Below, piece after piece: positions 11,054-24,857 of a stretch of DNA of 64,000 nt (positions are counted from its first letter, which is position 1; the number at the start of each line of letters is the position of its first letter). The translations under genes were made by a program, and so were the position numbers. A model generated the notes under the pieces. It searched no databases. It had not been told where the DNA came from and saw only the letters and a program-made list of their open reading frames with translations. The DNA comes from Kutzneria buriramensis (GTDB taxonomy: Bacteria; Actinomycetota; Actinomycetes; Mycobacteriales; Pseudonocardiaceae), in contig NZ_QUNO01000004.1 of assembly GCF_003387475.1 (NCBI RefSeq), forward strand, positions 248,001-312,000. Reading direction: 5' to 3'.

Positions 11054-11214
11054 GACGGTCCAGGCACCGGCGGGGCCTCGCCCTTTCCGGCGCTGGGGGG
11101 TAGTTGCCGCGACACCTGGCGCTCCGCCATTCGCGCAGGTCACAGTCGGATGAAGCCCGTTTGCCCGATGAGTACCGCGCTGGTAGGAATCAGCCGTCAT
11201 CCGAGGGGGGATTG

Positions 11215-12174
11215 GTGGAGAAGGTGACGTCTTCCGTCTGGCAGCCGCCGACGGGGCGTCCGGCGGGCCGGGATCCGGAGGTGCGCCGGAGCCTGTCGCA
11301 GCTGCGTGAGCACAGCGACCGGCTGGCGCGGACCTGGTCGGGGCTCGTCTTCCTCGCGGTCCTCTGCCTGTTCGCCGGCCTGTGGGCAAGCCTCCTGCTC
11401 GCGACGCTGGCCGTGGTGGTCACCGGCGTTCGGATGGCCGGGTTCTGGTTTCAGGTGGGACGACACCTCGGCGCGATGGAGCGGCTGCTCGCCGCAGAGC
11501 CGGCTCGATCGGTCGACGCCGAGTCCCTGGGCGGCCGCTTGCTCAAGATCGACGGGAAGGTGCTGCGCTTTCCCACCCGTATGCCCACGGGTCGGGTCTG
11601 GGTGGTTGGCCCGAACCGCGCCGGCGAGGCGGTCGTGTTCGTCGACGCGGTGATCACCCCGAACTTCGGTCAGGTGGTGTCCGCGACCCCGGAGCACCTG
11701 AGCGTCCGGCCCCAGCGTCAGTGGCGGCCGTGGCAGGCGGCACGGGCGGCGGGCAGGTCGGCGGCCCGTGCCCACGCCCGGCGGTGGCTCTTCACGATCG
11801 TGGTGACCATTTCGATCGGTGCCGAGCTGGCTCCGCAACCGCAGGTGCTGGGTTGGCTGTACGCGATCGCCGGCTCGGTGATCCTGGTGCTGGCCGGCCG
11901 GCAGTGGCTGCGGATCGTGCCCAGCCTGCACGCGTCGCGCCAGCTGCGGGAACCGCTCGTCGAGTACCCGGCACGGGTGATCACCGAGAAGTCGGTCGCC
12001 GTGACACTGCCGGACGGTTCCGAGCTGACGGGCGTGCTGCTCTGGTCCGTGCAGCTGCTGGCCAACGTCCGCGCCTCCGGACGGCTGTGGGTGGCGGGCG
12101 AACCCGCGACCGGCACGACGCTCGGCGTCGGGGTGCCGGAATACCCGATCGCGGGAGTTGTGCGTTTCAACTAG
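11215..12174 (+). CDS. Membrane protein, paralogue 1 of 3
   Basis: 319 residues, unrecognised. Two hydrophobic hairpins: one near residues 35-75 (around LVFLAVLCLFAGLW) and one near 185-225 (around WLFTIVVTISIGAEL). Between them is a soluble domain ending GRVWVVGPNRAGEAVVFVD, and after the second hairpin a C-terminal domain with VTLPDGSELTGVLLW and ASGRLWVAGEP. The next two genes repeat this order, so the three are tandem paralogues. I chose the GTG at 11215, 4 bases after a GAGGGGGG ribosome site; TTG at 11212 is the alternative. No function is assigned. Confidence 0.72.
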   Translation: MEKVTSSVWQPPTGRPAGRDPEVRRSLSQLREHSDRLARTWSGLVFLAVLCLFAGLWASLLLATLAVVVTGVRMAGFWFQVGRHLGAMERLLAAEPARSVDAESLGGRLLKIDGKVLRFPTRMPTGRVWVVGPNRAGEAVVFVDAVITPNFGQVVSATPEHLSVRPQRQWRPWQAARAAGRSAARAHARRWLFTIVVTISIGAELAPQPQVLGWLYAIAGSVILVLAGRQWLRIVPSLHASRQLREPLVEYPARVITEKSVAVTLPDGSELTGVLLWSVQLLANVRASGRLWVAGEPATGTTLGVGVPEYPIAGVVRFN

Positions 12175-12191
12175 CAGGGGGGAGACAAGGG

Positions 12192-13247
12192 GTGGACGAC
12201 ACCCTGTTGTCGGTCGCCGCGTGGCGGCCGGCCGAGCAATGGCAGGCCGACGACGAGTCGGTCGAGCTGTGCATGAAGGTGTACATGACGCGGGGCCGCT
12301 ATGTGCTGCTCACCGCGGGCGTGTTGGTGGCCTGGGCGGCGGTGCTGATCGCGCTGGGGGCCTCGACGGCCCTTGCCGTGGCGTTTCTGATCATCGCCGT
12401 GGCGATGGTCGGTCTGACCGGGTGGCGGTGGTTCGTCGTGGGCCGGTGGTTGCCGGCGGCCAAGGCGCTGCTGTCGGGTAGCCCGAGCCACCGGCTCCCG
12501 GCCGTGGTGGTGGCGCACAAGGACACCGGCACGGTGGTCGCTGTCGGCGATCGGTACCTGCGGGTGCGACTGCTCAGTTGGGGCATGCGGCAGGTCATCG
12601 CGCGCACCGGTGAGATCACGCTGGTCGGCCCGGACGTCAAAGGCAACGCCGTGGTGTTCGTGGACGGCCAGCCCGCCCCGCTGCCGGCGAGGGTCGTGGC
12701 GAAGCCGGCGCAGACAACCGTGGAGCCTGTCGTCCCGGTTTCCCGCAACGGCGCGCAGGACGCTGTGCCGATGTCGCATGCGAGGCAGCGTGCTCGCGCC
12801 CTGTTGATCCCGTTCGCCGCGCCGCTGCTGGTCATCGTCGCGCTGGTCTACGACGCGACTCAGCCGATTCCGCTGCTGACGGACGTGCGGATCGAGGCCC
12901 TTGCGATATACAGCTGGCCCATCGCGGCGTTCGGCGCCTTGGCCATGCTGGCCGGTCTGATCACGGTCTCTCCGCAACTGCGGCTGCCGAAACTGCTCGC
13001 GGCAGGGCAGTGGCAGGAGTACCAGGCGGTGGCGCTGAGCTGGCGCGGAGAGTCGCGGCGGCCGGTTGCGGATCTCACCGTGCAACTGACCCGTACGAAC
13101 GGCGAGTTGCGCCGGATGGTCGTCAAGGCGGCTCCGGTGGAGCTGGTGGCACACGTTCATGCCACCGGCACGTTGTGGATCATCGACGCGGGCACCGCCG
13201 CCGGCGTCCCCGGCTATCCGATCGCGGCACCTGCGAGGTTCGTGTGA
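12192..13247 (+). CDS. Membrane protein, paralogue 2 of 3
   Basis: 351 residues. Same plan as its neighbours: N-terminal hydrophobic hairpin (around VLLTAGVLVAWAAVLIALG), soluble segment ending GEITLVGPDVKGNAVVFVDG followed by APLPARVV, second hairpin (around LLIPFAAPLLVIVALV), then a C-terminal domain with HATGTLWIIDAGT and GYPIAAPARFV. GTG start 17 bases after paralogue 1, preceded by GGGGGAGACAAGG. Its stop overlaps the next start by 4 bases. Function unknown; the shared LVGP...VVFVDG segment is the best family marker. Confidence 0.72.
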   Translation: MDDTLLSVAAWRPAEQWQADDESVELCMKVYMTRGRYVLLTAGVLVAWAAVLIALGASTALAVAFLIIAVAMVGLTGWRWFVVGRWLPAAKALLSGSPSHRLPAVVVAHKDTGTVVAVGDRYLRVRLLSWGMRQVIARTGEITLVGPDVKGNAVVFVDGQPAPLPARVVAKPAQTTVEPVVPVSRNGAQDAVPMSHARQRARALLIPFAAPLLVIVALVYDATQPIPLLTDVRIEALAIYSWPIAAFGALAMLAGLITVSPQLRLPKLLAAGQWQEYQAVALSWRGESRRPVADLTVQLTRTNGELRRMVVKAAPVELVAHVHATGTLWIIDAGTAAGVPGYPIAAPARFV

Positions 13248-14260
13248 ACGACATGTGGCGGCCGCCGCTGGACCGACCGCTCGGCAGCGACCCGGCAATT
13301 CAGCTGGTGGTCAACTTCTGGCGGCGGCGCCGGCAGGTGCCGCAGATCATCTTCTGCCTGGCGGTGGCGGTGCTGATGTTCGCGATCCACCGCGGCTTCA
13401 GCCTGCTCGGCGTCATGCTTCTGCTTGCCGCGGTGGTGATGGTGGTCGGCTTGGTCCAGGCCCACAGTCGCGTGAAGTGGTGGCTGCCGGCGGCCCAGTC
13501 GCTGCTGGACGGCCCGCCGCCGGTGCGGGTGCGCAGCGAGACGGTTGGCGGCGAGAAGACGTGGACGCAGCTGTCCGTCGACGGTGGACGGCTGTACGTA
13601 CACCTGACGAACACCGAGGACCGCCTTCGGCAGCTGCTGGCTCGGCAGCGTGAGGTGTCGCTGGTGGGCCCGAACGCCGACGGCGTCGCGGCGGTGGTCG
13701 TGGACGGGTTTGCGGTGCCGCTGCCGGCGAGAGTCGTGCCCGCGCCGGCGTCACCGCGGCCGATCGCCGTCACGGACGGGGATCTGCCACGGGTGGGGGC
13801 GGCCAAAGCCGCGCGCGTGGTGTGGATATCGCTCGCGTTCGTCGGCCTTCTCGGCGGGAGTGCCATCTTCGACGTGCTGCTGACCGACGCCGGCTGGGTC
13901 GTGGCGACCCTCGGTTTCGTCGGGGCGCTGGTCCTGTTCGCGGTCGCGGCCCTCTTCCGGCGCGGCAACCAGCACCGCATGGTGAAGCTGCTGGGCAACG
14001 GCCCGTGGCAGGCCTACCCGGTGCAACTCCTGTCGTGGGCCGGCAATCCGGCCCCGATCGGGAAGCTGCGGCTGGCGCTGACCCTGCCGGACGGCAGCGT
14101 GCTGCCGGTCTGGGCCCGCTACGGCGAACCGTGGCTGATCGCCAACATCAGCGCCACGGGCTACCTCTGGGTGGCCGGCACACCCAGCTTCGGCGGTTCG
14201 GCCGTCGCCGGGCTGCCGGGCCTCCCCTTCGTCACGGCGGTGCAGTTCAAGGAGGGCTAG
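13244..14260 (+). CDS. Membrane protein, paralogue 3 of 3
   Basis: 338 residues. Repeats the family plan: hydrophobic hairpin near residues 25-70 (IIFCLAVAVLMFAIH), soluble domain with REVSLVGPNADGVAAVVVDG then VPLPARVV, second hairpin (WISLAFVGLLGGSAIF and FVGALVLFAVAALF), and a C-terminal domain with LTLPDGSVLPVWAR and ISATGYLWVAGTP. The start overlaps the preceding stop as GTGA. The 3' end overlaps the convergent hmgA by 4 bases. Function unknown. Confidence 0.72.
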   Translation: MNDMWRPPLDRPLGSDPAIQLVVNFWRRRRQVPQIIFCLAVAVLMFAIHRGFSLLGVMLLLAAVVMVVGLVQAHSRVKWWLPAAQSLLDGPPPVRVRSETVGGEKTWTQLSVDGGRLYVHLTNTEDRLRQLLARQREVSLVGPNADGVAAVVVDGFAVPLPARVVPAPASPRPIAVTDGDLPRVGAAKAARVVWISLAFVGLLGGSAIFDVLLTDAGWVVATLGFVGALVLFAVAALFRRGNQHRMVKLLGNGPWQAYPVQLLSWAGNPAPIGKLRLALTLPDGSVLPVWARYGEPWLIANISATGYLWVAGTPSFGGSAVAGLPGLPFVTAVQFKEG

Positions 14261-15429
14261 GGCCGCTGACGGCCCGACCAGGTCCAGGCGTACGCGGGGT
14301 CCTCGCACGCCTGGGCCGCCTCGCCGAGCTCCAGCGGCCGGAACGTGTCCACCATCACAGCGGTCTCGTCGAAGAACTCCGCCCCGAGCGACGCCTCCAC
14401 CGCCCCGGGCTGCGGGCCGTGCGTGCAGCCGGCGGGGTGCAGCGACAGCGAGCCGATGCCGATGCCGGAGCCCTTGCGCGCCTCGTAGTTGCCGCCGACG
14501 TAGAACATCAGCTCGTCGGAGTCGACGTTGGCGTGGTTGTACGGCACGGGAATCGACAGCGGGTGGTAGTCCACCTTGCGCGGGCAGAACGAGCAGACCA
14601 CGAAGTTGGGCCCCTCGAACGTCTGGTGCACGGGCGGCGGCTGGTGCAGCCGGCCGGTGATCGGCTCGAAGTCCCGGATGTTGAACGCCCACGGGTACAG
14701 GCAGCCGTCCCAGCCGACCACGTCGAACGGGTGGTTGGCGTAGGTGAAGCGGGTCACGCCGGCCCGGTGCCGGACCAGCACGTCCACGTCCTCGCCGTCG
14801 GCCAGCAGCGGCTCCGCCGGGCCGCGGACGTCCCGCTCGCAGTACGGGGAGTGCTCCAGGAACTGGCCCTTGGCCGACAGGTAGCGCTTGGGCGGGCCGA
14901 TGTGGCCGGTGGCCTCCAGCACGAGGATGCGCATCGGCTCGCCGGAGTTCGGCACCACCCGATAGGTGCACGACGTGGGGATCACCACATAGTCGCCGTC
15001 GCCCACGGTCAGCGCCCCGTAGATCGTCTCCACGACCCCGGAGCCCGTCTGCACGTAGAGCAGTTCGTCGCCGGTGGCGTTGCGGTAGAGCGGGCTCGGC
15101 GTAGTCGCGGCGACGAAGACGATCACCACGTCGGAGTTGCCGAACAGCACCCGGCGGCCGGTCACCGCGTCGGCGTCCTCCCAGGTCAGGTCGGGTGTCT
15201 TGAAGTGCCTGGGCAGCAGCGGCAGGTTCGGCTTCGGCGCGTTGCGGTGGTCGTCGACCACCTGCGCGTCGACGATCGCGGTCGGCAGGTGCCGGTGGTA
15301 GAGCAGGGCCGAATCCGACGAGAAGCCCTCCACTCCCATGAGCTCCTCGGCGTACAGACCGCCCTCCGGCGTGCGGAACTGGGTGTGCCGCTTGCGGGGG
15401 ATCTCGCCGACCTGACGGTAGTAAGGCAT
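14257..15429 (-). CDS. hmgA: Homogentisate 1,2-dioxygenase
   Basis: Non-haem Fe(II) ring-cleaving enzyme converting homogentisate to maleylacetoacetate in tyrosine/phenylalanine catabolism. 390 residues. The cupin-type C-terminal domain shows likely Fe ligands: His and Glu in the NHANVDSDELMFYVGG region and His in SLHPAGCTHGPQPG. The N-terminus MPYYRQVGEIPRKRHTQFR is typical. The ATG at 15429 follows GGAGAG. Divergent from the next gene; the 69-base gap holds two palindromes. The fahA and IclR genes on the other side complete a homogentisate regulon. Confidence 0.95.
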   Translation of the reverse strand: MPYYRQVGEIPRKRHTQFRTPEGGLYAEELMGVEGFSSDSALLYHRHLPTAIVDAQVVDDHRNAPKPNLPLLPRHFKTPDLTWEDADAVTGRRVLFGNSDVVIVFVAATTPSPLYRNATGDELLYVQTGSGVVETIYGALTVGDGDYVVIPTSCTYRVVPNSGEPMRILVLEATGHIGPPKRYLSAKGQFLEHSPYCERDVRGPAEPLLADGEDVDVLVRHRAGVTRFTYANHPFDVVGWDGCLYPWAFNIRDFEPITGRLHQPPPVHQTFEGPNFVVCSFCPRKVDYHPLSIPVPYNHANVDSDELMFYVGGNYEARKGSGIGIGSLSLHPAGCTHGPQPGAVEASLGAEFFDETAVMVDTFRPLELGEAAQACEDPAYAWTWSGRQRP

Positions 15430-15442
15430 TGGGCTCTCCGGG

Positions 15443-15459
15443 TGTCCGATAGTCGGACA
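15443..15459. promoter_or_regulatory. Palindromic operator 1 of the homogentisate regulon
   Basis: TGTCCGA-TAG-TCGGACA, a perfect 7-bp inverted repeat with a 3-base centre. It is 14 bases upstream of the hmgA ATG and just upstream of the -35 element of the divergent gene, so it could control both directions. The IclR-family regulator at 17539 is the obvious candidate ligand. Confidence 0.65.
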
Positions 15460-15462
15460 TCT

Positions 15463-15491
15463 TTGTTCAGCTGCCGTGACACCGCTAGCGT
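15463..15491 (+). promoter_or_regulatory. Leaderless promoter of the unknown gene-fahA-IclR operon
   Basis: -35 TTGTTC (15463-15468), 17-base spacer, -10 TAGCGT (15486-15491), then 7 nt to the GTG at 15499. The predicted transcript starts at the start codon. The -10 is covered by palindrome 2. Confidence 0.6.
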
Positions 15492-15496
15492 GTCAC
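15476..15496. promoter_or_regulatory. Palindromic operator 2 of the homogentisate regulon
   Basis: GTGACAC-CGCTAGC-GTGTCAC, a perfect 7-bp inverted repeat with a 7-base centre that overlaps the -10 of the rightward promoter. This position fits a repressor site. It differs in sequence from palindrome 1, so two proteins or two site classes may be involved. Confidence 0.6.
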
Positions 15497-15498
15497 CC

Positions 15499-16365
15499 GT
15501 GTCAAGCGCTGTAGAACTCCGTGCGCCCGGTCCACGAGGCACGCCGCCGCTGCTCGCGAGGCTCGTCGACGACGCGGCGCTGTTCCCGCCCGGCAACGCG
15601 ACGATGGCCGACGCGGTCCGTGGACACCTCGACGGGCGGACCGGCGAATGGGCCGGTGTGCTGGGCCTTTTCCTGTGTCCGGCGTCTCGGCTGCCCGAGC
15701 TCATCACCGAGCTGATCAAGGCCAAGCCGGTCAAGCCGGTGGCCATCTCGCTGGTCATCGACACCGGCCTGGGCGGGGTGCCGAAGGCCGTCTCCATCGT
15801 GGAGTCCCGCAGCGAGCTGCTGGCGCTGCGGATGGTGGAGATGCCGGCCCCGTCCGACGTGGACAAGGTGTGGCTGGAACGGGTCTCGGAGTTCGTGCCC
15901 GAGGACGTGATCCGCGTGGTCGAGCCGCGCCGCGGCGGCGCGGAGTGGCTGGACGGCGTCGCCCGGGTCATCGAGCACGGCAGCTGGCCGAAGCTGCGCT
16001 GCGGCGGCCTGAGCCACGAGGCGTTCCCGAGCGTGGACCAGGTCGCGGACTTCCTGTCCGTGGTCTCCGGCGGGGGCGTGTCCTTCAAGGCGACGGCCGG
16101 CCTGCACAACGCGGTCCGGCACACCTCCGAGGAGACCGGCTTCACCCACCACGGCTTCCTCAACCTGCTGGTGGCCACCGCGCGCTCGCTGTCCGGCAAG
16201 GACGTGCGGGAGGCGCTGGCCGAGACCGACGGCGAGAAGCTCGCCGAGGAGGCCAAGGCGCTGTCCGATCCGGCCGCGCACGCGGTCCGCGGCGTGTTCG
16301 CGTCCTACGGCTCGTGCTCGCTCACGGATCCGGTGAACGACCTGGAGAAGCTGGGGATGCTGTGA
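15499..16365 (+). CDS. Unknown protein between hmgA and fahA
   Basis: 288 residues, soluble, family not recognised. The N-terminus has LVDDAALFPPGNATMADAVRGH. Alternating beta and helical stretches (for example PVAISLVIDTGLG, LRMVEMPAPSD, KLRCGGLS and VSFKATAGLHNAVRH) look like an alpha/beta barrel. Its stop overlaps the fahA start by 4 bases, and it is controlled with hmgA across shared palindromes. Maleylacetoacetate isomerase is the step missing from this cluster, so this protein may act there or have an accessory role; no glutathione-transferase fold is apparent. The start is GTG 15499 on leaderless spacing; GTG 15490 would lie inside the -10. Confidence 0.75.
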   Translation: MSSAVELRAPGPRGTPPLLARLVDDAALFPPGNATMADAVRGHLDGRTGEWAGVLGLFLCPASRLPELITELIKAKPVKPVAISLVIDTGLGGVPKAVSIVESRSELLALRMVEMPAPSDVDKVWLERVSEFVPEDVIRVVEPRRGGAEWLDGVARVIEHGSWPKLRCGGLSHEAFPSVDQVADFLSVVSGGGVSFKATAGLHNAVRHTSEETGFTHHGFLNLLVATARSLSGKDVREALAETDGEKLAEEAKALSDPAAHAVRGVFASYGSCSLTDPVNDLEKLGML

Positions 16366-17537
16366 CCTGGATCGACGACCCGGAATTCACCGCGGACCAC
16401 CCGTTCGGGCCGCAGACGCTGCCGTACGGCGTGATCGACGAGGGCGTCGCGGTCCGGGTCGGCGGCCAGGCGCTGCCGCTGCGGCCGATCGCCGGCTCCT
16501 TCGGCGACCGGCTCGCGGAGCTGGTGTCGGCGGACTCGCTTGACCCGCTGCTGGCCGCGGACCGGCCGGTGTGGAGCGAACTGCGGGCCCGGCTGATCGA
16601 GCTCGTGACGGCCACCAAGGCGCCGCAGGGGGCCGCTCTGGCCCCGCTGGCGTCGGCCCGGCTGCCCTTCGCCGTCGGCGACTACGTGGACTTCTACTCG
16701 TCCCGGCACCACGCGGAGAACGTCGGCAAGATCTTCCGCCCGGACGGGGCGGCGCTGCTGCCGAACTGGACGCACCTGCCGGTCGGCTACCACGGCCGCG
16801 CCGGCACCGTCGTGGTGTCGGGCACCGACGTGGTGCGGCCCAAGGGCCAGCGCAAGGGCGAGCAGGAGCCCGTGTACGGCCCGAGCGTGCGGCTGGACAT
16901 CGAGGCCGAGGTCGGCTTCGTCTGCGGCGGGCCGGTCGCCGGCGAGGTGAGCACCTCCGCGGCTGCCGACCACGTCTTCGGCGTGGTGCTGGTCAACGAC
17001 TGGTCGGCGCGGGACATCCAGGCGTGGGAGTACCAGCCGCTGGGCCCGTTCCTGGCCAAGTCCTTCGCCACTTCGGTGAGCGCCTGGATCACGCCGCTGG
17101 AGGCGCTGTCCCGGGCCCGGGTGGCGCCGCCGACGCCACCGCATGCGCTGCTGCCGTACCTGGTCGAGGACACGGACTGGGGCCTGGACCTGGCGCTTCG
17201 CGTGTCGTGGAACGACACCGTCGTCACCGAGCCGCCGTTCGCGACCATGTCTTGGACGTTCGCGCAGCAGTTGGCGCACATGACCGTGAACGGCGCGACC
17301 GTCCGGCCCGGCGACCTGTTCGCTTCAGGCACCGTGTCCGGGCCGGAGAAGTTCCAGCGCGGCAGCTTCCTGGAGCTGAGCTGGGGCGGCAAGGAGCCGG
17401 TGGAGCTCAAGGACGGCTCCTCGCGCACGTTCCTGGAGGACGGCGACACGATCGTCATCACCGCGACCGCGCCCGGCGAGGACGGCTCGGTGGTGGGTAT
17501 CGCCGAGGTCGCCGGCACCGTGAGACCGGCGGCCTGA
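16362..17537 (+). CDS. fahA: Fumarylacetoacetase
   Basis: Hydrolyses fumarylacetoacetate to fumarate and acetoacetate, the last step of tyrosine degradation. 391 residues. The metal site is visible: Asp in YVDFYSSRHHAENVGKIFR, the two Glu in LDIEAEVGF, and Asp in VLVNDWSARDIQ. The Lys of GPFLAKSFATS also matches the family. The N-terminal FAH domain (residues 1-100) precedes the catalytic domain. The GTG start overlaps the upstream stop as GTGA, so translation is coupled. Followed after one base by the IclR regulator. Confidence 0.95.
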   Translation: MTWIDDPEFTADHPFGPQTLPYGVIDEGVAVRVGGQALPLRPIAGSFGDRLAELVSADSLDPLLAADRPVWSELRARLIELVTATKAPQGAALAPLASARLPFAVGDYVDFYSSRHHAENVGKIFRPDGAALLPNWTHLPVGYHGRAGTVVVSGTDVVRPKGQRKGEQEPVYGPSVRLDIEAEVGFVCGGPVAGEVSTSAAADHVFGVVLVNDWSARDIQAWEYQPLGPFLAKSFATSVSAWITPLEALSRARVAPPTPPHALLPYLVEDTDWGLDLALRVSWNDTVVTEPPFATMSWTFAQQLAHMTVNGATVRPGDLFASGTVSGPEKFQRGSFLELSWGGKEPVELKDGSSRTFLEDGDTIVITATAPGEDGSVVGIAEVAGTVRPAA

Positions 17538-17538
17538 C

Positions 17539-18180
17539 ATGGTCGAGCCGGCCACCCGCGAGAGCTCGCTGACCCTGGAGCGGGGCCTTGCCCTGCTCCA
17601 GGCCGTCGCGGACTCGGACACGGGTGCGCCGAGCATCAGCGACCTGGCCACCGCCATCGGGGCGTCCCGGGCGGCGGTCTACCGGCTGCTGGTGCCGTTG
17701 CAGGCGCGTGGGCTCGTGCTGCGTGACGGCTCGAAGGTGCGGCTGGGCCTCGGCGTGCTGCAACTGGCCGCCAAGGTGGTGCCGCAGCTGCGTATCGCCG
17801 CCACGCCGCCGCTACGCGAGCTCGCGGAGGGCGTGGGGGCGACGGCGCACCTCACCGTCGCGGAGGGCCCTGAGGCGCAGGCGGTGGCCGTTGTGGAGCC
17901 CTCCTGGACGACGTATCACGTGGCGTACCGGGTGGGCACACGCCACCCGGTCAGTCGCGGCGCCGGCGGCAAGGCGATGTCGCTGCCGCCGGGTGGCCCG
18001 GAGTGGATCGACAGCACCGGTGAGCTCCAGCCCGGCGCGTACGGCGTGGCCGCGCCCGTACGGGGCGTTCCGGGGCTGCGGGCCAGCGTCGGCGTCATCT
18101 CCATGGAGCCGATGGATCAGACCGTCGTGGGACCGCTGGTGGTCGCGGCGGCTGCCGCCGTCGCCGAGGCGCTTCGCTGA
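17539..18180 (+). CDS. IclR-family regulator of homogentisate catabolism
   Basis: 213 residues, somewhat shorter than the usual 250. A winged HTH lies at about residues 10-70 (SISDLATAIGASRAAVYRLL), then the IclR effector-binding domain with GATAHLTVAEG and GTRHPVSRGAGGKAM. It starts one base after the fahA stop. Operon position and the palindromes at 15443-15496 suggest it controls this cluster with an aromatic intermediate as ligand; that is inference. The short C-terminal domain lacks the usual last helices. Confidence 0.88.
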   Translation: MVEPATRESSLTLERGLALLQAVADSDTGAPSISDLATAIGASRAAVYRLLVPLQARGLVLRDGSKVRLGLGVLQLAAKVVPQLRIAATPPLRELAEGVGATAHLTVAEGPEAQAVAVVEPSWTTYHVAYRVGTRHPVSRGAGGKAMSLPPGGPEWIDSTGELQPGAYGVAAPVRGVPGLRASVGVISMEPMDQTVVGPLVVAAAAAVAEALR

Positions 18181-19124: not shown

Positions 19125-20654
19125 GTGGACGTACTAGATGTGGCCAGGTGGCAGTTCGGGATCACCACCGTCTACCACTTCCTGATGGTGCCGCTGACCA
19201 TCGGGCTGTCCATTGTGGTCGCGGTCATGCAGACGGCCTGGGTGCGCACGGGGAAGGCGCACTACCTGGCGATGACCAAGTTCTGGGGCAAGCTGATGCT
19301 GGTCAACTTCGCCATGGGCGTCGTGACCGGCATCGTCCAGGAGTTCCAGTTCGGCATGACCTGGTCGGCGTACTCCCGCTTCGTCGGCGACGTGTTCGGC
19401 GCGCCGCTGGCGATGGAGGGCATCGTCGCCTTCATGGTCGAGTCGACCTTCCTGGGCCTGTGGATCTTCGGCTGGGAGCGGCTGCCCAAGCGGGTGCACC
19501 TGGCCTGCCTGTGGGCCGCGTCGCTGGCCTCGACCGCGTCGGCCTACTTCATCCTGTCGGCGAACTCGTGGATGCAGCACCCGGTCGGCATCGAGCTGGT
19601 GGACGGCAAGCCGCGACTGACCTCGATCTGGGCGCTGCTGACCAACAACACCGCCATCGCCGCCTTCACGCACACGGTCTCGGGCGGCTTCGCCGTCGCC
19701 GGCACGTTCCTGGTCGGCATCTCGGCCTGGCACTTGTGGAAGAAGCACAAGGCGTCCACCGAAGAACCGCTTGCGGGTTCGAGAATTGACACAGTGGACG
19801 ATCCGGACCGCAAGGTGTGGTCGGCCTCGCTCAAGCTGGGCGCCTGGATCGGCATGGTCGCCTTCGCGGCGGTCGCGCTGACCGGCGACACCCAGGGCAA
19901 GCTGATGTTCCAGCAGCAGCCGATGAAGATGGCCGCCGCGGAAGCTTTGTGCCACACCGAGGCGCCGGCCAGCTTCTCGATCTTCGCGTACGGCGACGTG
20001 TCCCGGCCGGACTGCGAGAACGTCAAGAGCATCACCGTGCCGGCGCTGCTGTCCTTCCTGGCCCACAACGACTTCACCACCGAGGTCAAGGGCGTGCAGG
20101 ACCTGACCGCGCTGTACGAGAAGAAGTACGGGCACAACTACCCGGTGGACCCGAGCCTGGGCGAGCTGTCGGGCAAGCCCGTCAACTACGTGCCCGACCT
20201 GCCCGTCACCTACTGGGGCTTCCGGTTCATGATCGGCTTCGGCGCCATCGCGGCCGGCGCGGCGCTGCTCGCGCTGTGGCTGACCCGGCGCGGCCGCATC
20301 CCACGGACCAGGTGGTTCCCGCGGCTGGCGCTGGCGTCGATCGCGACCCCGTTCCTGGCCAACAGCTTCGGCTGGATCTTCACCGAGATGGGCCGCCAGC
20401 CGTTCGTGGTCGTGCCCAACCCGACCGGCGTCGACGGCGTGTTCATGTACACCGCGCAGGCGGTGTCGCCGGGGGTGTCGGCCGGCCAGGTGCTGACCTC
20501 GCTGATTGCGCTCACCGCGGTGTACGGGGTGCTGGCCGTGGTGGAGGTGTTCCTGCTGGTCCGCTACGCCAAGGCGGGCGTGGCCGGCGTGATGCCGCCG
20601 ACCGACGGCGACAAGAGGAAGCCCGACGACGACGTGCTCGCGTTCGCGTACTGA
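19125..20654 (+). CDS. cydA: Cytochrome bd oxidase subunit I
   Basis: Quinol-oxidising, haem-carrying subunit of the high-affinity bd terminal oxidase. 509 residues, about nine membrane segments. The N-terminal haem ligand His is in TTVYHFLMVPLT, another His is in AAFTHTVSGGF, and the conserved segment reads EMGRQPF where the usual form is GRQPW. The short Q-loop is of the actinobacterial type. GTG start; CAGTGT 7 nt upstream may be a weak -10 of a leaderless transcript. First gene of a cydA-cydB-cydDC operon for low-oxygen respiration. Confidence 0.96.
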   Translation: MDVLDVARWQFGITTVYHFLMVPLTIGLSIVVAVMQTAWVRTGKAHYLAMTKFWGKLMLVNFAMGVVTGIVQEFQFGMTWSAYSRFVGDVFGAPLAMEGIVAFMVESTFLGLWIFGWERLPKRVHLACLWAASLASTASAYFILSANSWMQHPVGIELVDGKPRLTSIWALLTNNTAIAAFTHTVSGGFAVAGTFLVGISAWHLWKKHKASTEEPLAGSRIDTVDDPDRKVWSASLKLGAWIGMVAFAAVALTGDTQGKLMFQQQPMKMAAAEALCHTEAPASFSIFAYGDVSRPDCENVKSITVPALLSFLAHNDFTTEVKGVQDLTALYEKKYGHNYPVDPSLGELSGKPVNYVPDLPVTYWGFRFMIGFGAIAAGAALLALWLTRRGRIPRTRWFPRLALASIATPFLANSFGWIFTEMGRQPFVVVPNPTGVDGVFMYTAQAVSPGVSAGQVLTSLIALTAVYGVLAVVEVFLLVRYAKAGVAGVMPPTDGDKRKPDDDVLAFAY

Positions 20655-20664
20655 GGAGCCTGCC

Positions 20665-21672
20665 GTGGACCTGCCAACCCTGTGGTTCTGGGTGATCGCC
20701 GCGCTCTGGACGGGCTACTTCTTCCTGGAGGGCTTCGACTTCGGCGTCGGCATGCTGACCCGGCTGCTGGCCCGGGACAACACCGAGCGCCGGGTGCTGG
20801 TGAACACCATCGGCCCGGTCTGGGACGGCAACGAGGTGTGGGTGATCGTCGCCATCGGCGCCACCTTCGCCGCGTTCCCGCCCTGGTACGCCACCATGCT
20901 CTCGGCCGAGTACCTGCCGGTGCTGCTCATCCTGCTCGGTCTGATCGGGCGCGGGGTCGCGTTCGAGTACCGCGGCAAGGTGGACAGCGACCGCTGGCGG
21001 CGCGGCTGGGACGTGGTGATCACGCTCGGCTCGTGGATCCCGCCGCTGGGCTGGGGTCTGGTGATCACCGGCGTCGCGACCGGGCTGCCGATCGGCAAGA
21101 ACGGCGTGCTGGAGGGCGGTTTCCTCGCCCTGTTCACGTGGCCGGCGGTGCTGGGCGCGCTGGCGCTGGCCGGCTTCAGCCTGGTGCACGGCGCGGTGTT
21201 CGTGGCGCTCAAGACCGACGGCGACATCCGCCGACGGGCCCGCGCGCTGGCGCTGCGGGTCGGGCCGTTCTGCCTGCTGCCGCTGGCCGCGCTCATGGTG
21301 GCGGTGCAGGTGCGGCAGGGCGGGCTGGTGACGATCGTGATCGCGGCGGTCGGGCTGCTGGCCGGGGCCGGCGCGCTGGTGCGGTTGGCCGCCGGGCGCG
21401 AAGGACAGGCCTTCGCGCTGCTGGGGGTGCTCATCGCGACCGCGACGGCGGCCCTGTTCGGCTCCGACTTCCCGAACATCATCTCGTCCACTGTGGACCC
21501 GACGTACTCGATCACGGTGGCCAACGCGGCGTCGAGCCCGTACACGCTGGGCGTGATCACGTGGGTGGCGGCGTTCGGCACTCCGGCGATCCTCGTCTAC
21601 CAGGGCTGGACGTACTGGGTGTTCCGCAAGCGGATCAACGCCGCGCACATCCCGCCGGTGCACGTGCCGTGA
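20665..21672 (+). CDS. cydB: Cytochrome bd oxidase subunit II
   Basis: 335 residues, eight or nine membrane segments. The N-terminus LWFWVIAALWTGYFFLEGFD is the family signature. The next conserved region is TIGPVWDGNEVW. Together with CydA it forms the oxidase heterodimer. Starts 10 bases after cydA, and its stop overlaps the cydDC start by 4 bases. Confidence 0.96.
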   Translation: MDLPTLWFWVIAALWTGYFFLEGFDFGVGMLTRLLARDNTERRVLVNTIGPVWDGNEVWVIVAIGATFAAFPPWYATMLSAEYLPVLLILLGLIGRGVAFEYRGKVDSDRWRRGWDVVITLGSWIPPLGWGLVITGVATGLPIGKNGVLEGGFLALFTWPAVLGALALAGFSLVHGAVFVALKTDGDIRRRARALALRVGPFCLLPLAALMVAVQVRQGGLVTIVIAAVGLLAGAGALVRLAAGREGQAFALLGVLIATATAALFGSDFPNIISSTVDPTYSITVANAASSPYTLGVITWVAAFGTPAILVYQGWTYWVFRKRINAAHIPPVHVP

Positions 21673-24600
21673 GCCGGGGACCGCTGGGAGACCTACCGGC
21701 GCTGTCGCCGAGCGCGCGCCGTGCGCTGGGGGTGTGCGGCGCGCTCTCGGTGCTCAACGCCGTCGCCATCGTGGCGCAGGCGTGGGCGCTGTCGTCGGTG
21801 CTCGCGTCCGTGGTCACCGGGCACGGCGACCGGCCGTTCGCGTTGCTGGCCGGTGCGGTGGTGGCCCGATCGGTGCTGGTGTGGGCGCTGGACACCATGT
21901 CCGCGCGGGCCGCCGCCGGGGCCAAGGAGGAGCTGCGGGCGCGGGCGTTGGACCGGGCGCTCGCCCTCGGCCCGGAGTGGATCGCCACGCACGGGCCGGC
22001 CGAGCTGACTGTGTTGGCCACCAAGGGTTTGGACGCCCTGGACGCGTACTTCACCCGCTACCTACCGGCGCTGGTGACCGCCGCGGTGGTGCCATTGCTG
22101 GTGGGTGTGGCGATCCTGTTCCAGGACGTGCAGTCGGCGGTGCTGGTCGCCGTCACCGTGCCGCTGATCCCGGTGTTCGCCATCCTCATCGGCAAGTACA
22201 CCGAGCAGCGCACGGCCAAGTCCGCCGACGCCACCGCGCGGCTGTCCGGGCACCTGCTGGAGCTGGTGCGGGCGCTGCCGGTGCTGACCGCGTTCGGTCG
22301 GGCGGAGGCGCAGGCCGAGGCGGTGCGGCGGGTCGGGGACCAGCACCGCAAGGCCACCGGGTCGACGCTGCGGGTGGCCTTCCTGTCGGCGTTCGCGCTG
22401 GAAACCATTGCCACGCTGTCGGTCGCGCTGGTCGCCGTGGACATCGGCCTGCGGCTGGTCGGCGGCACGCTCGGCCTCGCCACCGGGTTGCTGGTGCTCG
22501 TGCTGACGCCGGAGTGCTACCTGCCGCTGCGCGCCGCCGGCGCGGCCTTCCATGCCAGTGAGGACGGGCTGGAGGCGGTGCGCCGGGTCGCCGAGATCGA
22601 CCACGTCGAACGGGGCGGCGGCGCGATCGCCGACGGCGAGATCAAGGTGGACCGGCTCTCGGTGGAGCGGCGCGGCGCGCTGGCACCCGACGGCGCCTCG
22701 TTCACCGTCCGATCAGGACACATCACGCGGCTGGATTCGCCCAGTGGGGCGGGGAAATCGACCACCTTGGCCGTGCTCCTGGGTTTCGTGCGGCCGACGC
22801 GAGGCCTGGTCACGGTCGGCGGTGTCGATCTGTCTACAGTGGATTTGTCGACTTGGCGACGGCAGGTGGCGTGGGTGCCGCAGCGGCCGGCGTTCAGCGC
22901 CGAGATCGTGGCGGACGAGCTGGCGCTGGTCGGCGGCGACCTGGTCGGCGTGACCGCCAGGGTCGGCGCGGCGCACCTGCTGGAGCGGCCGATCGTCGAG
23001 CTGTCCACGGGCGAGCGGCAGCGGGTGGCGATCGCCCGCGCCCTGCTGCGCGTCGAGCAGGGGGCGCGCTGGCTGCTGCTGGACGAGCCGACCGCACACC
23101 TGGACCCGGCGACCGCCGGCCTGGTCATGGCGGCGATCGAGGACGCCGCCGCGAACGGCGTGGGCGTGCTGCTAGCGACGCACCGCGTCGCCGCTGCCGA
23201 GGACGCCGCCACGGTGGCCGCGGTGGCGTCTCAGGCAGCGAAGGCGGACTTCGTGGCACCGCGCGCACGCATCGCCGACCTGCTGAACCGCCGGTCCATG
23301 ATCGGCGTCCTGCTCGGTGTGCTGGCCGTGGGCAGTGGCATCGCGCTGACCGCCACCGCAGCCTGGCTGATCGCCCGCGCGTCCCAGCAACCGCCGGAGG
23401 CCGCACTCGCGGTGGCCGTGGTCGCGGTGCGGGCGTTCGGCCTGGGCAAGGGCGCGCTGCGGTACGTGGAGCGCCTGGTCACGCACGACGCCGCGTTCCG
23501 GCTCGGGGGCAGCCTGCGTGGACAGCTGTGGGACGCCCTGGTCCGCATCGGCCCGGCCCGTACGATCACGCTGCGCCGCACCGACGGCGTGCAGCGCCTG
23601 GTCGACGACACCGACACCGTGCGGGACCTGGTGCCGCGCGTGCTGGTGCCGCCGCTGGTCGGCCTGCTCGTGGTCATCGGCGCCGTCGCCCTGGAGACGG
23701 CCGTGCTGCCCGCCGCCGGCGTGGTGTTCGCGGCCGCGCTGCTGGTCGCCGGTGTCGGCGGGCCTGCGGTGGCGCTGCTGGTGGAGCGGCGGGCCACCAC
23801 CGCGCTGGCCGCCGGCCGACGGGACGTCGCCGCGAAGGTGCTCACGCTGTTCGACGCCGCGCCCGATCTGATCGCCTTCGGCGCGGTCCGCCGCCGCCGG
23901 GCCGAACTCGCCGCCGTCGACGCCGAACTGGCCGCCACCGCCCGTCGGCAGGCGCTGGGCGCGGGTGCCGCGAACGCTGTCGTCATCGCCTCGATCGGCG
24001 TGGCGACCCTGATCTGTTCCTGGCTGGCCGCCTCGGCCGCCGGGCTCGACCCGGTGCTGGTGCCGCTGTTGGCACTGGTGCCGTTGGCCACGACCGAAGC
24101 GGTCGCGGCCATTCCCCCGGCGGCTCAGCAGTGGGGTGCCCTTAGGTCCGCCTTTCAGCGGGTCACTGAGCTGACCGGGAGTTGCGGGGAGGAGGGCTCG
24201 ACTCGTCGGGAGAGCCCTTCACCCCGCAACACAATCTTGTTGACCGGCGTGGATGTCCGCTGGCCGGGCGCCGAACGGCCCGCGCTGCGCGGCGTCGACC
24301 TGGACGTGCCGGCCGGCAGCCACGTCGCCGTGATCGGGCCGTCCGGCGCGGGCAAGTCCACGCTCGTGGCGCTGCTGCTGGGTTTCCTGCCCCCCGAAAG
24401 CGGCGCGGCCGAGGTGCCGGCCGTTGTGTCGTGGTGCCCGCAGGAGCCGCAACTGGTGTCCACGACCGTGCGCGAAAACCTGCGGCTGGGCGATCCCGGG
24501 GCGTCGGACGAACGTCTGCGCGAAGCTCTTTGCGACGCCCAACTGCCCGCCTGGACCGACCGGCTGGACGTCGTCGTCGGCACCGGCGGGGCGGCGGTGT

Positions 24601-24857
24601 CCGGTGGCGAGGCGCAGCGGCTGGCGATGGCCCGTGCCCTGCTGCGGGCCGATCATGCCGACCTCGTGCTGCTGGACGAGCCCACCGCGCACCTGGACGA
24701 GCCGACCGCCCAGGCGCTGCTCCAGCGGCTGCGGAGCCGGCTCGCCGGCCGTACCGTCGTGCACGTCACCCACCGGCTCGACGAGGCGGCCGACGCCGAC
24801 CTGGTGATCGAGGTGAGCGGCGGCACGATCCGGTCGCGCCAGCGAGAGGCGGTCTAG
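21669..24857 (+). CDS. cydDC: CydD-CydC fused ABC exporter
   Basis: 1062 residues joining two complete ABC half-transporters that are separate genes in E. coli. CydDC exports glutathione/cysteine or handles haem and is needed to assemble cytochrome bd. First half: membrane domain to about residue 310, ATPase with SPSGAGKST, LSTGERQR and LLLDEPTAHLD. Second half: membrane domain about 540-830, ATPase with GPSGAGKST, VSGGEAQR and LLDEPTAHLD. The first P-loop has Ser in place of the leading Gly, so the two ATP sites may be unequal. The GTG overlaps the cydB stop as GTGA. Its TAG may double as part of a TAGGCT element before the kinase gene. Confidence 0.93.
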   Translation: MSRGPLGDLPALSPSARRALGVCGALSVLNAVAIVAQAWALSSVLASVVTGHGDRPFALLAGAVVARSVLVWALDTMSARAAAGAKEELRARALDRALALGPEWIATHGPAELTVLATKGLDALDAYFTRYLPALVTAAVVPLLVGVAILFQDVQSAVLVAVTVPLIPVFAILIGKYTEQRTAKSADATARLSGHLLELVRALPVLTAFGRAEAQAEAVRRVGDQHRKATGSTLRVAFLSAFALETIATLSVALVAVDIGLRLVGGTLGLATGLLVLVLTPECYLPLRAAGAAFHASEDGLEAVRRVAEIDHVERGGGAIADGEIKVDRLSVERRGALAPDGASFTVRSGHITRLDSPSGAGKSTTLAVLLGFVRPTRGLVTVGGVDLSTVDLSTWRRQVAWVPQRPAFSAEIVADELALVGGDLVGVTARVGAAHLLERPIVELSTGERQRVAIARALLRVEQGARWLLLDEPTAHLDPATAGLVMAAIEDAAANGVGVLLATHRVAAAEDAATVAAVASQAAKADFVAPRARIADLLNRRSMIGVLLGVLAVGSGIALTATAAWLIARASQQPPEAALAVAVVAVRAFGLGKGALRYVERLVTHDAAFRLGGSLRGQLWDALVRIGPARTITLRRTDGVQRLVDDTDTVRDLVPRVLVPPLVGLLVVIGAVALETAVLPAAGVVFAAALLVAGVGGPAVALLVERRATTALAAGRRDVAAKVLTLFDAAPDLIAFGAVRRRRAELAAVDAELAATARRQALGAGAANAVVIASIGVATLICSWLAASAAGLDPVLVPLLALVPLATTEAVAAIPPAAQQWGALRSAFQRVTELTGSCGEEGSTRRESPSPRNTILLTGVDVRWPGAERPALRGVDLDVPAGSHVAVIGPSGAGKSTLVALLLGFLPPESGAAEVPAVVSWCPQEPQLVSTTVRENLRLGDPGASDERLREALCDAQLPAWTDRLDVVVGTGGAAVSGGEAQRLAMARALLRADHADLVLLDEPTAHLDEPTAQALLQRLRSRLAGRTVVHVTHRLDEAADADLVIEVSGGTIRSRQREAV

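Follow-up and report, generated by a model that had tools for sequence, protein, structure and literature searches.

A nameless TIM-barrel family encoded beside fahA is a candidate maleylacetoacetate isomerase unrelated to the glutathione-dependent enzymes

Described isomerases and the Kutzneria homogentisate cluster

Maleylacetoacetate isomerases of the MaiA/GSTZ type (TIGR01262) are glutathione transferases, and in proteobacterial plasmids their gene, maiA, commonly adjoins fahA or hmgA. For the corresponding reaction in gentisate breakdown, actinobacteria have a non-GST answer in the mycothiol-dependent maleylpyruvate isomerase of the DinB/MDMPI type (TIGR03083), as cited in PMC3937715. In Bacillus anthracis, the isomerase gene of homogentisate breakdown could not be identified, and the fate of maleylacetoacetate was said to need more analysis (PMC4457819, 2015). 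An earlier guess at the missing isomerase came from Rhodococcus, where an enoyl-CoA hydratase gene beside fahA was named “mai” (PMC4591350); by the accessions given there, a single product without a name falls between hmgA (AII08874) and fahA (AII08876).

We focused on a gene of Kutzneria buriramensis that lies in such a neighborhood, within a stretch of 64,000 nucleotides referred to here as the window. The features of its cluster are as follows.

14257..15429, minus strand: hmgA-like gene for a homogentisate 1,2-dioxygenase of a short divergent type, 390 aa (Pfam HgmA_N, HgmA_C)
15443..15459, unstranded: perfect palindrome TGTCCGA-TAG-TCGGACA between the divergent hmgA and candidate genes, putative operator
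15466..15498, plus strand: TTGTTC and TAGCGT elements directly 5' of the GTG, conserved when the upstream stretches of relatives are aligned, probable promoter
15499..16365, plus strand: candidate maleylacetoacetate isomerase gene of a nameless family (ORF, DERA-like TIM-barrel model, 76 of 80 relatives precede fahA)
16362..17537, plus strand: fahA, fumarylacetoacetase, translationally coupled through a 4-nt overlap (TIGR01266, 389.6 bits versus a cut-off of 375.3)
17539..18180, plus strand: IclR-type regulator gene (Pfam HTH_IclR, IclR_C), kept downstream in Pseudonocardiaceae

The candidate ORF runs from a GTG start to a TGA stop over 288 codons (288 aa), with a codon-position GC content of 0.73/0.48/0.93 that is usual for a high-GC coding frame. 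Its TGA lies over the GTG of fahA, confirming the overlap reported in an initial annotation of this DNA. That annotation had also noted a dioxygenase and a fumarylacetoacetase but no visible isomerase in the cluster; the HgmA domains and the TIGR01266 match bear out the first two, and the cluster contains no isomerase gene. The window HmgA scores 58.6 bits against TIGR01015, far under the cut-off, and therefore represents a divergent short type; it shares 48 to 52% identity with its counterparts in the Priestia and Kovacikia clusters discussed below.

The candidate and hmgA genes are separated by 69 nt. A regulated promoter shared by the two had been proposed, and they do have this divergent intergenic region in common, but hmgA is read from the minus strand. 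The palindrome is recognizable, often in imperfect form, in most Pseudonocardiaceae relatives, and it is likely an operator between the divergent genes; the IclR-type gene likely regulates the cluster. A sigma-70 scan of the intergenic region gave no match. Conservation of the TTGTTC and TAGCGT elements immediately before the GTG suggests a leaderless transcript, of which they are the probable promoter. A second perfect inverted repeat, GTGACAC-N7-GTGTCAC (15476-15496), lies just 5' of the start codon and overlaps this stretch. Elsewhere in the window, three tandem paralogues that appear membrane-bound (11104-14260, plus strand; 29 to 33% mutual identity) lie immediately 3' of hmgA and are read from the other strand, and genes that by eye resemble those of cytochrome bd oxidase subunits are followed by a long frame that likewise looks like a fused CydD-CydC ABC transporter (19125-24857, plus strand).

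Neither the candidate protein nor a profile of 62 family sequences had a match in Pfam, NCBIfam, or PDB. In particular, the protein matched neither TIGR01262 nor GST domains at an E value of ≤1 (NCBIfam, Pfam), nor TIGR03083 or MDMPI_N in the same collections. It shares the proposed reaction and the gene neighborhood of MaiA but not its sequence. The Rhodococcus “mai” product, although from the same genomic neighborhood, is an enoyl-CoA hydratase/isomerase homologue encoded after fahA; the unnamed product preceding fahA there presumably belongs to the candidate family, judging from the accession numbers and the R. jostii locus (L093). An identity with CbiZ was dropped: the match (E value, 0.027) was under the CbiZ cut-off, was seen in 8 of the 62 members, and disagrees with the fold.

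Conservation of the family beside fahA

A scan of the genome collection placed the family at a minimum of 566 sites, and it is present in 18 of 296 actinobacterial genomes. Its closest relatives among the matches listed are from Kutzneria (92% and 88% identity), and members in the plasmid collection are labeled “hypothetical protein” or left unannotated. We counted neighbors for the best 80 of these at least 566 relatives. In 76 of them, fahA follows the family gene on the same strand, and in the other 4 it is absent from the fetched flank, with no case of another arrangement. Upstream, 68 have a short-type hmgA, half of them divergent (34) and half codirectional (34). Since fahA is fixed while the orientation of hmgA varies, fahA is the constant partner, which fits an enzyme that makes the substrate of FahA. 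In 15 of 17 further genome loci, fahA is next to the family gene. The exceptions are L028, where the fahA of that genome (G244) is on another contig, and L035, where a truncated copy of the family gene sits at a contig end beside hmgA. In seven of these genomes (G044, G083, G154, G256, G271, G279, and G281), a classical HmgA, partly encoded elsewhere, takes the place of the short type, and the pair of candidate and fahA is kept. At the level of whole genomes, FahA is found in 17 of the 18 candidate-bearing genomes versus 41 of 296 overall (Fisher P of about 1e-15), and all 24 plasmid records with the candidate carry FahA, which is present in 119 records.

The partnership extends to three phyla. 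In the Bacillota, Priestia megaterium has the order hppD-candidate-fahA-hisC-hmgA, and in the cyanobacterium Kovacikia the candidate gene overlaps fahA, and hmgA and hppD lie close by on the opposite strand. Compared with these two, the window proteins have 26 to 29% (candidate) and 42 to 46% (FahA) identity, and the order and strand of the pair are kept, so that recent shared ancestry as the only cause of the linkage was rejected. Conservation of the neighborhood, which the initial annotation had named as a check, was thereby found both among close relatives and across phyla. We consider it almost certain that the candidate acts in the homogentisate pathway.

Some relatives stand apart from this pattern. 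Two from Pseudonocardiales metagenome assemblies (L060:8001-8864 and L061:8001-8807; 63% and 59% identity) have no fahA or hmgA in the fetched flanks and have lost C273, and possibly they have changed function. The relative at L028 (6418-9154, G244) directly follows a gene that by eye resembles a FAD-dependent aromatic monooxygenase and might act on an analogous ring-cleavage product.

We then compared this distribution with that of known isomerases. The K. buriramensis genome encodes HPPD (contig C11), one HmgA, and FahA, and MaiA (TIGR01262) was not found across it at an E value of ≤1. Likewise, no MaiA above the cut-off was found in any of the 41 FahA-positive actinobacterial genomes, and no plasmid carries both maiA and the candidate among the matches listed (60 of 119 and 60 of 229). 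The initial annotation had named a separate isomerase gene elsewhere in the genome as grounds for refutation; a GST-type MaiA is absent, but the genome has 29 matches to the DinB superfamily, which may include a mycothiol-dependent isomerase. Its premise that known isomerases depend on glutathione overlooks precisely this DinB-type maleylpyruvate isomerase of actinobacteria (cited in PMC3937715).

Of the 41 FahA-positive genomes, 23 have neither the candidate family nor MaiA, suggesting that the step may be dispensable, not always enzymatic, or replaced again by a third solution. One Streptomyces-like genus accounts for 11 of these 23, every one of its genomes being included (G023, G104, G123, G153, G162, G172, G182, G222, G275, G285, and G295); these have HPPD, a classical HmgA, and FahA. 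In the FahA tree, the Streptomyces-like rows are nested within candidate-bearing Kitasatospora and Nocardiopsis rows, and therefore the candidate gene was apparently lost in this genus while FahA and the other pathway genes were retained (L032 is labeled in the tree as lacking the family owing to an E value threshold, and the gene is present). A mycothiol-dependent enzyme, nonenzymatic thiol catalysis, or direct hydrolysis may serve in these genomes. Inspection of 20 fahA loci from family-less genomes revealed no common candidate for a third isomerase, with a crude gene caller that misframes some GC-rich loci; hpd, hmgA, and fahA often adjoin there without other genes.

Barrel model and proposed mechanism

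The AlphaFold2 model, built from the 62-row family alignment, is a (beta/alpha)8 barrel (pLDDT, 94.2; pTM, 0.91) and not the GST fold, with its thioredoxin-like N-domain and helical C-domain; it also differs from the fold of DinB/MDMPI. The closest solved fold is that of DERA (DeoC). DERA uses a Schiff-base lysine in a KTSTG motif, and the following strand carries another lysine. A second structural aligner returned DERA or DERA-based designs in all of its top 41 rows (Z scores of 15.8 to 13.9), the best alignment covering 214 residues at 3.5 Å rmsd (Z, 15.8) and the next fold scoring 12.7, while Foldseek matches were weaker and mixed. Neither sequence nor profile comparison supported homology to DeoC: hhalign gave a probability of 0.2% over 16 columns, and none of the 62 members matched Pfam DeoC or TIGR00126. 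Given that this comparison is not significant, we describe a likeness of fold rather than common descent.

Conserved polar residues fall within the C-terminal parts of the strands or immediately beyond them, which is where TIM barrels have their active sites. D24, E142, R167, K197, T199, and H218 are invariant in the 62 sequences. By strand, the invariant or nearly invariant positions are D24 (strand 1), E114 (strand 4), E142 (strand 5), K165 and R167 (strand 6), and K197 and T199 (strand 7), to which H203, R207, H218, and N222 after strand 7 and C273 just after strand 8 are added. The structure prediction, another check named at the outset, thus gave an enzyme-like barrel with a conserved polar mouth. 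A DeoC model from the same phylum has the two DERA lysines on strands equivalent to 6 and 7, the strands that hold K165 and K197 in the candidate model, as judged by strand number (K165 is missing in L014). The motifs themselves differ, since KTSTG of DERA corresponds to KxR(T/C)GG and the strand-7 motif to FKATAGLHH, and the candidate has a long insert after strand 7.

From its place in the pathway, the gap left by the missing isomerase, and a barrel that looks like an enzyme, we think it probable that the candidate acts as a maleylacetoacetate isomerase and is not related to the glutathione-dependent MaiA/GSTZ enzymes, the reaction itself being read from gene context. HmgA would open homogentisate to the cis compound maleylacetoacetate, the candidate would convert it to the trans compound fumarylacetoacetate, and the translationally coupled FahA would split this into fumarate and acetoacetate. 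In the barrel, conserved Arg, His, and Ser residues may grip the carboxylates of the substrate, and a nucleophile or iminium of the enzyme, most likely from K197 on strand 7 and K165 on strand 6, perhaps together with C273 after strand 8, would add reversibly to the enone. C2-C3 would then become a single bond and could rotate without an external thiol, and elimination would release the trans isomer. The protein itself would thereby do the chemistry of glutathione in MaiA, and its own residues would, by hypothesis, replace the thiol cofactor of the DinB-type enzyme. K197 is the best-conserved candidate catalytic residue, followed by K165 and C273. Two family members lack parts of the set: one between hmgA and fahA (L014:1501-2388) is without K165, H203, and C273, and one beside fahA (L164:1501-2385) is without K197, H203, and C273. 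Both may be noncatalytic or altered versions. We regard covalent catalysis by a lysine or cysteine as no more than plausible. The chances appear evenly balanced for the wider proposal of a new, thiol-cofactor-free isomerase family with a class-I-aldolase-like TIM barrel, acting covalently through its own Lys or Cys and forming the usual solution in many Gram-positive bacteria and some cyanobacteria.

Alternative roles and significance

The gene context and a carboxylate-binding barrel would also fit a direct hydrolysis of maleylacetoacetate (by FahA or by some other enzyme) that yields maleate and acetoacetate, with the candidate acting on the maleate branch (e.g., hydrating maleate or isomerizing it from cis to trans) or being itself the maleylacetoacetate hydrolase. 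Such hydrolysis to maleate was reported for some Bacillus strains (Crawford 1976, as cited in PMC4457819), and many genomes are without any isomerase. We nevertheless regard this route as unlikely, given that TIGR01266 identifies FahA as a regular fumarylacetoacetase, that the candidate gene is immediately 5' of fahA, as expected for the maker of the FahA substrate, and that no maleate-pathway genes lie beside it in the loci read. A role outside catalysis in the main route, as a FahA partner, a chaperone, or a regulatory or accessory protein, also seems improbable. The isomerization would then proceed nonenzymatically with mycothiol or through a DinB-type mycothiol-dependent enzyme, which accords with the 29 DinB-type proteins of the genome and with the glutathione-dependent nonenzymatic bypass known in mice (cited in PMC11457941). 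The fixed coupling to fahA and the degraded putative active sites of L014 and L164 beside fahA point the same way, whereas invariant D, E, R, K, and H residues at the C-terminal strand ends of a barrel are a hallmark of enzymes, and Priestia and Kovacikia, which have the pair too, do not belong to the mycothiol-making actinobacteria. As for a regulatory role, which the initial annotation had mentioned, the window cluster already has its own IclR regulator. The conserved residues line the barrel mouth, for which reason regulation was rejected as the leading explanation.

The DERA-like fold and the lysines on strands 6 and 7 would also suit an aldolase-type enzyme of side-product repair, e.g., one clearing succinylacetone or other toxic compounds into which maleylacetoacetate or fumarylacetoacetate break down; side products are known to be toxic in animals (PMC11457941). 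So strict a tie to fahA would be unexpected for a repair enzyme while the same genomes miss the isomerase, and we consider this role very unlikely. A nonhomologous isomerase, as envisaged in the initial annotation, therefore offers the best explanation of the context, the absence of a GST-type MaiA, and the barrel model, although the many actinobacteria with HPPD, HmgA, and FahA that have neither protein count against it, as do the lost candidate catalytic residues of L014 and L164.

We found no description of an enzyme of this kind in the open-licence literature; subscription papers might contain one. The isomerase step of homogentisate breakdown had no gene in Gram-positive bacteria, and the family described here provides one directly testable candidate. 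If the proposed isomerase function is true, it would give a name to hundreds of genes and would add another chemical solution to enone cis-trans isomerization, with an isomerase that works without glutathione.
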